From positions 1-64,000 of the forward strand of contig JAPLOA010000086.1 of assembly GCA_026400835.1 (NCBI GenBank): a DNA stretch of 64,000 nt, given 5' to 3'. Under the pieces are notes generated by a model. That model saw nothing but the letters and a program-made list of their open reading frames with translations, was not told where the DNA came from and searched no databases. The DNA comes from Planctomycetales bacterium. GTDB taxonomy: Bacteria > Planctomycetota > Planctomycetia > Planctomycetales > Planctomycetaceae. Positions 22,854 through 27,812 of the stretch are shown here, piece after piece. Positions within the stretch are counted from its first letter, which is position 1; every line of letters starts with the position of its first letter. Position numbers and translations under genes: made by a program.

Positions 22854-23231
22854 TGCTGTCGGAAATCACCGTGGGTTTGATTTTCCAGTGTGAGCCGCGG
22901 GGGGAGGTGGAGGAGAAACACGGCAGTAAGCTGCAAATTTAGCCGGATTCGTGAGAATTCGGAGGGGCCTGAACTCTCACGAGTTCAGCTATGGGTTGGT
23001 CTATGAACGTCCGCTGGAAGCTGCGAGCCTTGAGAAATGAATGCTGTTCAATGCCTCCGCCATGGGAACCGATCAAGCACTGAAACCGGGTTCTACCTGG
23101 ATTGATTTCTACCCGGATTGATATCGACAGCCTGAAGAAACTTTGCAGGAGCTAAGCAGTCTGCTGTTGTTGGCGGTGCCGGTGAACAGCCTGCGAGTCA
23201 GCATTGTCACGCTTTGATTTTCAGCAGGCTG
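22854..23231. other. Intergenic, small palindromes only
   Basis: No gene. A short palindrome gaactctcacgagttc at about 22970-22985 and a related attcgtgagaat at about 22949 are the only structures noted. Probably promoter region of the former sigma-factor gene. Confidence 0.4.
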
Positions 23232-23757
23232 ATGAATCTCCAGGGCTGGTGAAGACGAGAATCTGATTCGCAGGATTCGGACAGGTGATCAGAATGCTCT
23301 GGCAGAACTGATGGAGCGATATCGCGGACAGTTGCTGGCCACCGCTTCTCGCAAGATGATTGATCTGCTGAAACGCAGCGTCGAACCCGACGATGTGGTG
23401 CAGGAAGCGATTAGCTATTGCCTGAAAACATTTAGTGAGATCGACAGCAAAGCGCTGGATCCGATGCCGTGGGTACATCAGGTGCTCGAACGCAGGATCG
23501 TGGATGTTCATTGCCCGTATTCCCTCCGCCAGCCAGACATTTGCTCGCAATCCTCGCGAAGAACGATTGATGATCGTGATGTCGCAACTGACACAGGGCC
23601 AGCAGGACACCCTCCGCATGCGCTATGTGGAAAATCTGCCGTCCAAAGAAATCGCCGACAAGCTCGGTAAATCCGAGCGCAGTGATCCCGTCACCAGAGA
23701 GCTGAACATCCTCTCCAACATCGCGTTTTTCAACCAGATCAAAAGCCCGCCCGATCA
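23232..23757 (+). pseudogene. Degraded ECF sigma factor
   Basis: Pieces of a sigma-70 ECF factor are spread over different frames. From about 23247 one frame gives EDENLIRRIRTGDQNALAEL and MERYRGQLLATASRKM, then SVEPDDVVQEAI (region 2) and PWVHQVLERRIVDVH, ending near 23510. The next frame then gives PREERLMIVMSQLTQGQQ, LRMRYVENLPSKEIADKLGK (region 4, helix-turn-helix). The joint lacks the usual linker of about 30 residues, the ATG at 23232 is out of frame with region 2 by one base, and the end after KLGKSE does not continue the recognition helix. At least two indels plus truncation: non-functional unless sequencing errors are to blame. Family ECF members of this type are numerous in planctomycetes. 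Confidence 0.82.
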
Positions 23758-25230
23758 CCGAGGTTTTCGCTGCCAGAACTCAGTGATCGTTTCTGGAGAC
23801 TCTTCGAGTTGTGATGGAAGATGGCCAAAGATCTCGGGGCCGATGGTTCCAATCACATCCAGTCGTACATGGGACGGGATTTCGGACGGGGTGAGAACCA
23901 CAAGATCTTCAAATGTGGAGCGGCAATGGGTCCGGATTCGTTCGCGTTTTGAGTGTGGGACCACCAGGATCGGTGGCCGAGTCAAATTCAACGGCTTTTT
24001 CAGCTTGCGGATCTCGTCGAAAAATATCGTCAGGAGGCTTGAGTCGGATGTCTGGAGTTCTGGCTGATCAGGAAACACCTCCTGAGCCACTTCCTTTTCA
24101 ACGACAAACACCGGCAGGCGTCCGCTATCGTCAAGATGCGGACCACAAATGATCAGCGGGATATCACTGCGTACACGTGAGATTAGCAGCGGCATTGATT
24201 CGCAGTGTTCAACATGTCGGCCGACAGATTCAAGGATCGGGAGAATATGTCTGATCACAACACCTTCCCCGACAAGTCCTCGCAGGACTTCGAACAAACT
24301 CCGCAGCGAAACCGGGTGAGGAATCAGATTCGCTAAGGTGATCGGATGGGATTCTCGCAATTCATCCACAGCCGCCGAAACGGCTTCGTAGGTCAGCAGT
24401 TCTTTGGCATGGCGTTTGACGTGATACTCCAGCATTGTTGCGATGACGCTCATCGCATCAACGACAGTGGAACCCATGTCGACAGCCTGCTGATGTTGAT
24501 CGGGCTCAATCCAGGCCGCAGGCAGTCCATAGACGGGCTCGATGGTTTCAATGCCTCCCGGCGGCATGGTGGTTTTCTCCTGAACAATCGCCAGAATTTT
24601 TCCGGGGATGATGGTCCCCCGACCAACCTCAATACCGTGAATCAGGACGCGAAACTGATCCGAAGGGACACTTGAACTGGACTGAATGCGGAATGGCTGG
24701 AGTTGGAAGCCGAGCGTCTTCTCAAGATCGACTCGCGTCGCGGTGATGCGATCCTTGATTCGAAATTTCAGAAGTCGCTCGTTCGCCATCTGGAGCGCGT
24801 TGAGAACGGCTGAGCCGATTTCCAGACGGACAGTCTCAGAGTGGTCGGAGGCATGCTGAACGATAGTATCCAGCTCATGACCCTGCGCTGCCGTGGAGTT
24901 CTCGAGTCCATCCGATGAATCCTCACGACCGAGTGGTGCCACTGGATCTGGACGCATGATATCGCTGACCATAGTCACGGTGCTGATCAGATTTCGTTGA
25001 ATAATGATTTCGGGCCATTGATTGCCGCGATCCTCCAGCAAGTCTTCAATCAACAGCCGGTCCGACCAGCCGCCGGCTTCGTGAGAATCCTGCAAAACGA
25101 CACCCGTCATGCGAATACAGTCATCCGCGACTGCAGCCAGCGTTCCCAGGAGTCGTGCGTGATCCCAGGTCACGACGGAAACGGCACATCCCTGCATCTG
25201 CTGCAGAAAACCTCGGAAGTTCTGGCTCAT
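23755..25230 (-). CDS. Soluble FlhA/SctV-type (FHIPEP) cytoplasmic domain fused to an N-terminal LSm-like domain
   Basis: Residues about 8-90 form an Sm/LSm-like small barrel: QGCAVSVVTWDHARLLGTLA, ADDCIRMTGVV, then EIIIQRNLISTVTMV. Residues about 135-491 match the whole C-terminal cytoplasmic domain of type III export-gate proteins (FlhA, SctV): RITATRVDLEKTLGFQL, FRVLIHGIEVGRGTIIPG, VYGLPAAWI, TVVDAMSVIATMLEYHVKRH (with AKELLTYEAV), LVGEGVVIRHILPILES, and the final subdomain ILVVPHSKRERIR ... TPSEIPSHVRLDVIG. The family's N-terminal eight-helix membrane domain (over 300 residues) is absent; no hydrophobic helix exists. The protein is thus soluble and cytoplasmic. No flagellar or injectisome genes are nearby. 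Known FlhA_C forms nonameric rings and binds export chaperones; whether this one does is inference. Divergent from the GAF-HlyD operon. Confidence 0.85.
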   Translation of the reverse strand: MSQNFRGFLQQMQGCAVSVVTWDHARLLGTLAAVADDCIRMTGVVLQDSHEAGGWSDRLLIEDLLEDRGNQWPEIIIQRNLISTVTMVSDIMRPDPVAPLGREDSSDGLENSTAAQGHELDTIVQHASDHSETVRLEIGSAVLNALQMANERLLKFRIKDRITATRVDLEKTLGFQLQPFRIQSSSSVPSDQFRVLIHGIEVGRGTIIPGKILAIVQEKTTMPPGGIETIEPVYGLPAAWIEPDQHQQAVDMGSTVVDAMSVIATMLEYHVKRHAKELLTYEAVSAAVDELRESHPITLANLIPHPVSLRSLFEVLRGLVGEGVVIRHILPILESVGRHVEHCESMPLLISRVRSDIPLIICGPHLDDSGRLPVFVVEKEVAQEVFPDQPELQTSDSSLLTIFFDEIRKLKKPLNLTRPPILVVPHSKRERIRTHCRSTFEDLVVLTPSEIPSHVRLDVIGTIGPEIFGHLPSQLEESPETITEFWQRKPR

Positions 25231-25724: not shown

Positions 25725-27812
25725 ATGACTGAGCCCGTTCCTTCCGACGAAAATCTGAAAAAAGTCCGTGAGCGGGTGATGCAGCTTGCTCGCGAGATTG
25801 AGCAGATGTCCGGTCAGGATCTTGCTCCTCCGTTGTTCTTTCAGGAGTTTCTTGTCCGCGTTGTGACCGCAATCGGTGCTCGCGCGGGAGCTGTTTGGCT
25901 GGTCGATGAATCGAATCGTCTGGGATTGACGGCGCAGGTGAATTTGGAACAAACCGGACTTCGCGAACGCCCCGGCGCGCTGGCGCTCAACGAAAAGCTG
26001 ATCGTCGATGTTCTGCAGACGGGTGAAGCTCGCACGTTGACTCACGGTGGCGAAGCGCAGCTTCCGACCGAGCATGTTCTGGTGCTGTCGGCTCTGCACA
26101 AAGAGAAAAAGTGTGTCGGAGTTGTCGAGCTGTTTCAGCGGCCAGATGTTCCGATCAAGGCGCAATCCGGCTACATGCAGTTTCTGGAACAGATGTGTGG
26201 CTATGGGTCGAGATTTATCGAAGGCAAGCGTCGCAATCCTGGTGATCAGGCCGATCTGAAGAATCAGTTCTGGACCGACTTTGAGCAATTCTCACTACGA
26301 ATTCAGCGATCGCTGGTGGAGCAGGAAGTCGCTGATGCAGCCGCCAGTGATGCTCGATCGCTGCTGGGGGCTGACCGCGTCAGCGTTGTGACTCGGAAAG
26401 GTCGCAGTGTGCGAGTTCGCGCGGTCAGTGGTCAGAGCAGCGTGAATCCTCGCGCGAATCTGATTGCAGCCATGAACAAATTGGCGTCGCGCGTCATCGA
26501 TATGGGCGAAACGCTTACTTACACCGGCAAGGTGGACGGTCTCGCACCTCAGATTGAAGAACCGTTAGCTGCTTTTGTGCAGGAGAGCGGCTCGCGCATG
26601 GTCATGATGGTGCCGACTTTCGAAACCGAAGACATGGTTCGAAAGCAGGGCGAGGAAGCTGACCGCGATCGAAAGACGAAGCGCATCAAGGCCACGGGCT
26701 GTATCGTGATCGAACAGATTGCGGAATCGGAGCCGCTGCCGCAACTGGAACAGCGTGCAGAACTGATCGCCGATCACGTTGGTGCCGCCCTGTGGAATGC
26801 TCGCCAGCACGGGCGAATTTTCGGCCTTAGCATCTGGAAACAGATGGGTACCGCGCTGGAGTGGTTTAAAGGGCGAAAGCTCATGATCACCACGGCCGTG
26901 CTGGCCGCGATCGCGGTTGTGGCTGCGGCACTCTCACTGATCAAGCTGGATTATCCGGTGACCGCTGAAGGCAAGCTGATGCCGATTGAGCAGCACGCGG
27001 TCTTTGCCACATGGGATGGCGTGATTACCCATGATGGACTGAAGGTCAACGGCGACGAAGAAGTCAAAAAGGGCCAGATTCTGGTTGTGTTGGAGAATGA
27101 CGAACTTGAAGGGCAGATCGAAGAAGCTAAGGCCTCCGTTCGAAAGTATGAACAGTTGGTAATTGGCAAGCGTGCCGAGATCGTGCAGTCGGAGCTGAAT
27201 ATCCCCAGGATGTCGGACGAAGAAAAACCTCAGAGCCTGGCGAACATTGAACGCATGCGAGTCGAACAGCGAGGGATTGAAGGAGATCTGGAGATCGCCA
27301 GACAGCAGGTACTGAATCTGGAGAATCGAAAGAAGGAGAAGCTGACGATTTACGCTCAGGCTGATGGTCGCATTCCAAACTTCCAACTGCGACAGCTATT
27401 GGAAGATCGCCCGGTGCGACAGGGAGATCATCTGTTTGACATCATGAATGACAACGGAGCCTGGCAGATGGAACTTCTGTTGCAGGAGAAACGCATGGGC
27501 CACATTCTGCGTGCTCAGCGAGAAGCGACGGCGACGAATAAATCGATCGAACTTCCCGGACGATTCACGATGGCCACTCAGCCGGACGCGAAGTTTGAAT
27601 GTCATCTGACAAAAGTGGCGACGCGGTCCACGACGGATACTGAACTTGGGACTGTGTTCGAACTGAATGCCGTCGCAAACGAAGGCCAGACACTTCCTGA
27701 AAAGCGTATCGGAGCGGAAGTGACCGTAAAGATTTATTGTGGTCAGAGCACTCTGTTCTATTGGTGCTTCGGAGATGTTGTCGACACCGCCCAGAAATGG
27801 CTCTGGCTTTGA
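25725..27812 (+). CDS. GAF-GAF-TM-HlyD adaptor protein
   Basis: 695 residues joining a cytoplasmic sensory part to a periplasmic adaptor. Two GAF-like domains are at about 25-165 (FLVRVVTAIGARAGAVWLVD, LVLSALHKEKKCVGVVELF) and 185-360 (DAASDARSLLGADRVSVV, with a charged insert and GCIVIEQI). A single transmembrane helix follows at about 386-405 (MITTAVLAAIAVVAAALSLI). The rest is a HlyD/RND membrane-fusion protein: barrel-sandwich segment PIEQHAVFATWDGVITHDGL, a coiled coil at about 450-545 (EEAKASVRKYEQL ... LEIARQQVLNLENRKK), then YAQADGRIPNFQLRQLLEDR. Type: periplasmic adaptor subunit of an efflux or secretion pump whose N-terminus may sense a cytoplasmic small molecule. No transporter subunit is adjacent. 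Twelve bases upstream of the next gene. Confidence 0.9.
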   Translation: MTEPVPSDENLKKVRERVMQLAREIEQMSGQDLAPPLFFQEFLVRVVTAIGARAGAVWLVDESNRLGLTAQVNLEQTGLRERPGALALNEKLIVDVLQTGEARTLTHGGEAQLPTEHVLVLSALHKEKKCVGVVELFQRPDVPIKAQSGYMQFLEQMCGYGSRFIEGKRRNPGDQADLKNQFWTDFEQFSLRIQRSLVEQEVADAAASDARSLLGADRVSVVTRKGRSVRVRAVSGQSSVNPRANLIAAMNKLASRVIDMGETLTYTGKVDGLAPQIEEPLAAFVQESGSRMVMMVPTFETEDMVRKQGEEADRDRKTKRIKATGCIVIEQIAESEPLPQLEQRAELIADHVGAALWNARQHGRIFGLSIWKQMGTALEWFKGRKLMITTAVLAAIAVVAAALSLIKLDYPVTAEGKLMPIEQHAVFATWDGVITHDGLKVNGDEEVKKGQILVVLENDELEGQIEEAKASVRKYEQLVIGKRAEIVQSELNIPRMSDEEKPQSLANIERMRVEQRGIEGDLEIARQQVLNLENRKKEKLTIYAQADGRIPNFQLRQLLEDRPVRQGDHLFDIMNDNGAWQMELLLQEKRMGHILRAQREATATNKSIELPGRFTMATQPDAKFECHLTKVATRSTTDTELGTVFELNAVANEGQTLPEKRIGAEVTVKIYCGQSTLFYWCFGDVVDTAQKWLWL

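Follow-up and report, generated by a model that had tools for sequence, protein, structure and literature searches.

A conserved soluble protein of planctomycetes combines a predicted Sm/LSm-type barrel with the cytoplasmic domain of the export gate protein FlhA

Results

The window, i.e. the whole stretch of 64,000 nucleotides that was analyzed, contains on its (-) strand an open reading frame (23755–25230) that starts with ATG and encodes a protein of 491 amino acids. Four parts can be distinguished, all on the same strand: a predicted Sm/LSm-like barrel (residues 1–88, 24967–25230), a linker that was modeled with low confidence and is the least conserved part (residues 89–133, 24832–24966), an FlhA_C-type domain (residues 134–463, 23842–24831) and a C-terminal tail with the last letters QRKPR (residues 464–491, 23758–23841). 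The 491 residues contain no membrane helix, the best Kyte-Doolittle mean over 19 residues being 1.42. Upstream of the ATG, no frame that would supply a membrane half is present, and a stop closes the frame within approximately 30 codons. The next gene beyond the 5' end (25725–27809, + strand) is divergent. It encodes two GAF domains and, judged from its sequence, an HlyD-like adaptor half, and it is present in almost every genome of the genus.

PF00771 (FHIPEP) was the sole Pfam match of the protein and aligned residues 119–455 with positions 321–656 of the 657 profile positions (E=5.8e-55). The FlhA profile of NCBIfam matched residues 125–463 on positions 338–678 of 678, reaching the last position of the profile (E=1.6e-58), with a score under the full-length equivalog cut-off, as is expected for half a protein. 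The E-value obtained with the SctV profile was 1.6e-24, and by sequence the FlhA_C-type domain is nearer to flagellar FlhA than to SctV. PDB chains of FlhA_C matched residues 157–464 with E-values down to 1.8e-27. An AlphaFold2 model of the fusion protein, which was of modest confidence (mean pLDDT 65), retrieved only FlhA and SctV structures among the best 50 Foldseek matches (E=9.2e-22). Together with the Pfam match, this shows that the four-subdomain cytoplasmic domain of FlhA is present. The original prediction, which had assigned residues 135–491 to the export gate domain, was right about its presence but placed its end too far downstream: its boundary lies near residue 463, and the remaining 28 residues or so form a separate tail. 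The claims that the membrane half is missing and that the reading frame encodes a soluble fusion of LSm and FlhA_C are borne out by the start of the PF00771 match at profile position 321, the predicted fold and the lack of both a hydrophobic segment and an upstream frame. With the upstream frame closed by a stop and the next gene divergent, neither of the results that would contradict these claims, a missing FHIPEP match or an upstream frame for the membrane domain, was found.

For the N-terminus, AlphaFold2 predicted a helix and five strands, and the best 50 folds found by Foldseek in the PDB all belonged to Sm/LSm proteins, including Edc3 and LSm14. Residues 1–88 are therefore assigned to an Sm/LSm-type barrel by structure prediction, which agrees with the fold originally proposed, and the monomer model contains both this barrel and the FlhA_C fold. 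The barrel is retained in all 22 fusion proteins identified below. Sequence profiles by themselves gave no proof of the fold. Pfam had no match in the N-terminal domain of the window protein up to E=10, so that LSm was not detectable there. Searching the PDB with an N-terminal profile of 17 relatives returned weak matches only, including entry 5lop (Dcp1-Dcp2-Edc3) and the small protein 1ycy. Free-standing LSm-like proteins of approximately 98 amino acids from other planctomycetes (L074:3181–3477 and L076:8247–8546) matched the N-terminal profile of the fusions with E-values of 4.9e-8 and 2.6e-5; the L074 protein also matched PF01423 with an E-value of 5.7e-4, below the cut-off. The canonical RNA-contact motifs of Sm proteins are D..xN in Sm1 and R/K-G in Sm2. 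At the corresponding positions of the 22 fusion proteins, neither the Sm1 motif nor R/K-G at the turn between strands 4 and 5 was present. Among the 17 members measured, the barrel was acidic, with a pI of 4.5–5.6 and 0–4 lysines.

In Salmonella FlhA, a dimple around D456, F459 and T490 docks the chaperones FlgN, FliS and FliT with their cargo, and the ring is stabilized by linker residues E351, W354 and D356 (PMC8166844, PMC10965912). The alignment places E231, Y234 and T265 of the window protein at the positions of D456, F459 and T490 of the Salmonella and E. coli proteins. Among the 22 fusions, D or E occupies position 456 in 20, F or Y position 459 in 20 and T position 490 in 18. In the window protein, the dimple was more strongly retained than randomly chosen positions (p=0.005), and also when general conservation was corrected for (p=0.04). 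In the main clade of fusions, conservation of the dimple was no better than that of other positions, and much of the dimple is lost in three members that retain the architecture (G049, G275 and G343). Tryptophan is found at the W354 position of the linker that stabilizes the nonameric FlhA ring in 15 of 22 fusions; the window protein does not have it. The tail ends with [PQ]R-x-P-R in 16 of the 20 complete fusions, encoded at 23758–23772 in the window and found also in L034–L038, L091, L092 and L096. This ending was absent from 24 full-length planctomycete FlhA proteins and from E. coli FlhA. RxPR ends 9 of 172 background reading frames; by our reading, these nine are the fusion genes contained in the set, and no other reading frame has the motif.

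A scan of the twenty window genes around the fusion detected no flagellar or secretion gene. The proposed absence of a secretion apparatus nearby was thereby confirmed, and membership of the fusion gene in an unseen secretion locus is ruled out for the window. The full-length FlhA of the same genome is encoded on another contig together with FliL, FliM/N, FliO and FliP, and the fusion is 29% identical to it over the aligned part. A separate FlhA is present in all 22 genomes with a fusion (the copy in G920 is cut by the contig end). Since an FlhA_C profile match was obtained in 315 of 398 genomes of the class (79%), ten independent genera would all contain FlhA by chance with a probability of approximately 10%, and the co-occurrence is only suggestive. 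In the loci of relatives that were read, the fusion gene was never located among flagellar genes; PIN-PhoH is a neighbor in three related genera, and the other neighbors are unrelated genes. In several planctomycete genomes, a second FlhA/SctV-type protein with a full-length frame of 704–846 amino acids was noticed (G034:C6, G045:C12, G053:C567 and G781:C20). Scanning the regions upstream of the fusions for a sigma-54-like GG-N10-GC element gave matches and no convincing site. By eye, a sigma-70-like pair (TTGCCG, 18 bases, TACAAT or TAGAAT) is seen there, conserved in two genera (L034, L035, L036 and L096; L037, L038, L058 and L059). Adjoining the fusion gene in the window, a degraded ECF sigma-factor gene (23221–23700, + strand) lacks approximately 92 bases near 23516 and its 3' end; the close relative G004 has an intact ECF sigma-factor gene at the same place (L086:2543–3223).

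The N-terminal profile detected the fusion in 17 of the 398 genomes of the class, and with a whole-protein profile these 17 proteins (E up to 4e-156) were separated from all full-length FlhA proteins (E from 7e-105). Five more came from a survey of one family, so that the survey of planctomycete genomes suggested with the original prediction recovered the same architecture in 22 genomes from 10 genera and three families. Fusions from different genera are 20–27% identical, and distant members share invariant positions in both domains. The protein of G015, a second genome of the genus, is 93% identical to the window protein; the linker is 83% identical, compared with 94–95% for the two domains. 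The dN/dS of this pair is 0.24, and judged by this ratio the gene is under purifying selection. G015 has the fusion at the same place, which rules out an assembly chimera. A truncated or frameshifted FlhA is ruled out by the recurrence of start and N-terminal barrel in 22 genomes and by the lack of an upstream membrane frame. In G004, the flanks are retained with 95–97% protein identity and only 64 bp of the fusion gene are left (L086:1584–1647, 95% identical to window positions 24255–24318). The remnant shows that loss accounts for at least some of the patchiness in distribution, and it rules out that the gene is absent from G004 because it was recently inserted in the lineage of the window. 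In a tree of FlhA_C, a single clade of all 21 rows in the test was rejected by the AU test (p=0.005), but not after removal of the long-branched G049 and G343 (p=0.30). With very long branches and an outcome that depends on these two members, the tree does not settle a single origin of the fusion, for which the shared barrel argues.

Discussion

The soluble fusion of LSm and FlhA_C is a real and conserved domain architecture, of which we found no description in the literature searched. FlhA and SctV, regarded as obligate membrane proteins, belong to the best-conserved components of flagella and injectisomes. To our knowledge, FlhA_C has until now been regarded as the half of type III export gates that lies in the cytoplasm. 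With the architecture conserved across 22 genomes and away from secretion loci, a new use of the export gate docking domain, as proposed originally, is a fair claim. A conserved, soluble and separately encoded version means that the docking half of FlhA can serve on its own, and the fusion offers a natural experiment to tell the surfaces of FlhA_C needed for cargo docking from those needed for ring formation or coupling to the membrane.

As the best, though tentative, explanation, the fusion might be a soluble paralog of the docking platform of FlhA by which flagellar chaperones and their cargo are bound or sequestered. The cytoplasmic protein would use its dimple between D1 and D2 to bind flagellar export chaperones loaded with late cargo such as flagellin and hook-associated proteins, and could either buffer these complexes or compete with the membrane-bound FlhA ring, thus tuning export. 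The barrel would replace the membrane anchor as a module for protein binding or oligomerization, and the arginine- and proline-containing C-terminus may be a further docking peptide. Support comes from the flagellar type of the FlhA_C, the separate FlhA in every carrier, the tryptophan at position 354 in most members, purifying selection and the kept dimple, which also strengthens the chaperone-linked role considered in the original prediction. This explanation is weakened by the limited weight of the co-occurrence with FlhA, by the unexceptional dimple conservation in the main clade and its loss in G049, G275 and G343, by the location away from flagellar genes in all loci read and by the missing tryptophan in the window protein. 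If sequestration of chaperone-cargo complexes took place, it would be a novel level at which flagellar export is controlled; otherwise, the fusion would represent a non-secretory use of the FlhA_C domain.

The same loss of the dimple in three members with unchanged architecture, the distance from flagellar genes, the long branches and a tail motif seen in no FlhA that was examined lend some weight to the main rival, in which the FlhA_C scaffold was repurposed outside the flagellum as a cytoplasmic ring or platform for other proteins, newly equipped for binding at its ends by the barrel and the RxPR tail and no longer involved in flagellar export. We consider this rather doubtful in view of the FlhA found in all carriers and the dimple triad kept in most members. 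It is likewise unlikely that FlhA_C, freed from the membrane, forms a free cytoplasmic assembly in which the barrel provides a second oligomerizing or binding face and RxPR binds a dedicated partner in a process other than type III export. A decaying or near-neutral relic of FlhA that has no present function might be suspected from the occurrence in 17 of 398 genomes, the remnant in G004 and the fast divergence between genera, but it is very improbable given the dN/dS ratio, the open frames in 22 genomes and the invariant positions and tail motif shared by distant members.

The Sm/LSm fold, typical of proteins with hexa- or heptameric rings, would also suit an RNA-linked regulator, in which an Hfq-like ring of barrels binds RNA, for example flagellar mRNAs, and FlhA_C senses chaperone occupancy. 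RNA-related folds adjoin the fusion gene in some genomes (PIN-PhoH in three related genera, an SpoU-type RNA methylase in G275), but these neighbors are not conserved outside those genera. The missing Sm1 and Sm2 motifs and the acidic, nearly lysine-free barrel weaken the idea of RNA binding, and with Edc3 and LSm14 among the top structural matches, the RNA-linked role proposed originally has lost support and appears improbable. The LSm domains of Edc3 and LSm14 bind protein partners (PMC8984151). By this precedent and the properties of the barrel, we rank protein binding above RNA binding.

Compared with Sm/LSm proteins (PF01423), among them Edc3 and LSm14, the fusion has the same predicted helix and five-stranded barrel, and differs by the attached FlhA_C, the missing RNA-contact motifs and the absence of significant Pfam hits from the N-terminal domain of the window protein. 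The free-standing LSm-like proteins of L074 and L076 are without FlhA_C, and no flagellar genes lie close to them in the short contigs examined. With SctV (InvA, YscV, EscV), the export gate of injectisomes, the fusion shares the cytoplasmic fold, but its sequence match is weaker than for FlhA, and the window has no injectisome genes. FlhA itself (PF00771, TIGR01398) resembles the fusion in FlhA_C over residues 119–463 approximately, and the GYXLI glycine, the invariant R391 position and the dimple residues are mostly kept in the fusions. In contrast to FlhA, whose N-terminal membrane half comprises about eight helices and includes the FHIPEP loop, the fusion carries the Sm-like barrel, ends with the RxPR tail and is encoded away from flagellar genes. 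Since the membrane half is missing, the fusion is not an export gate by membership; it may nonetheless work with the partners of the export gate.
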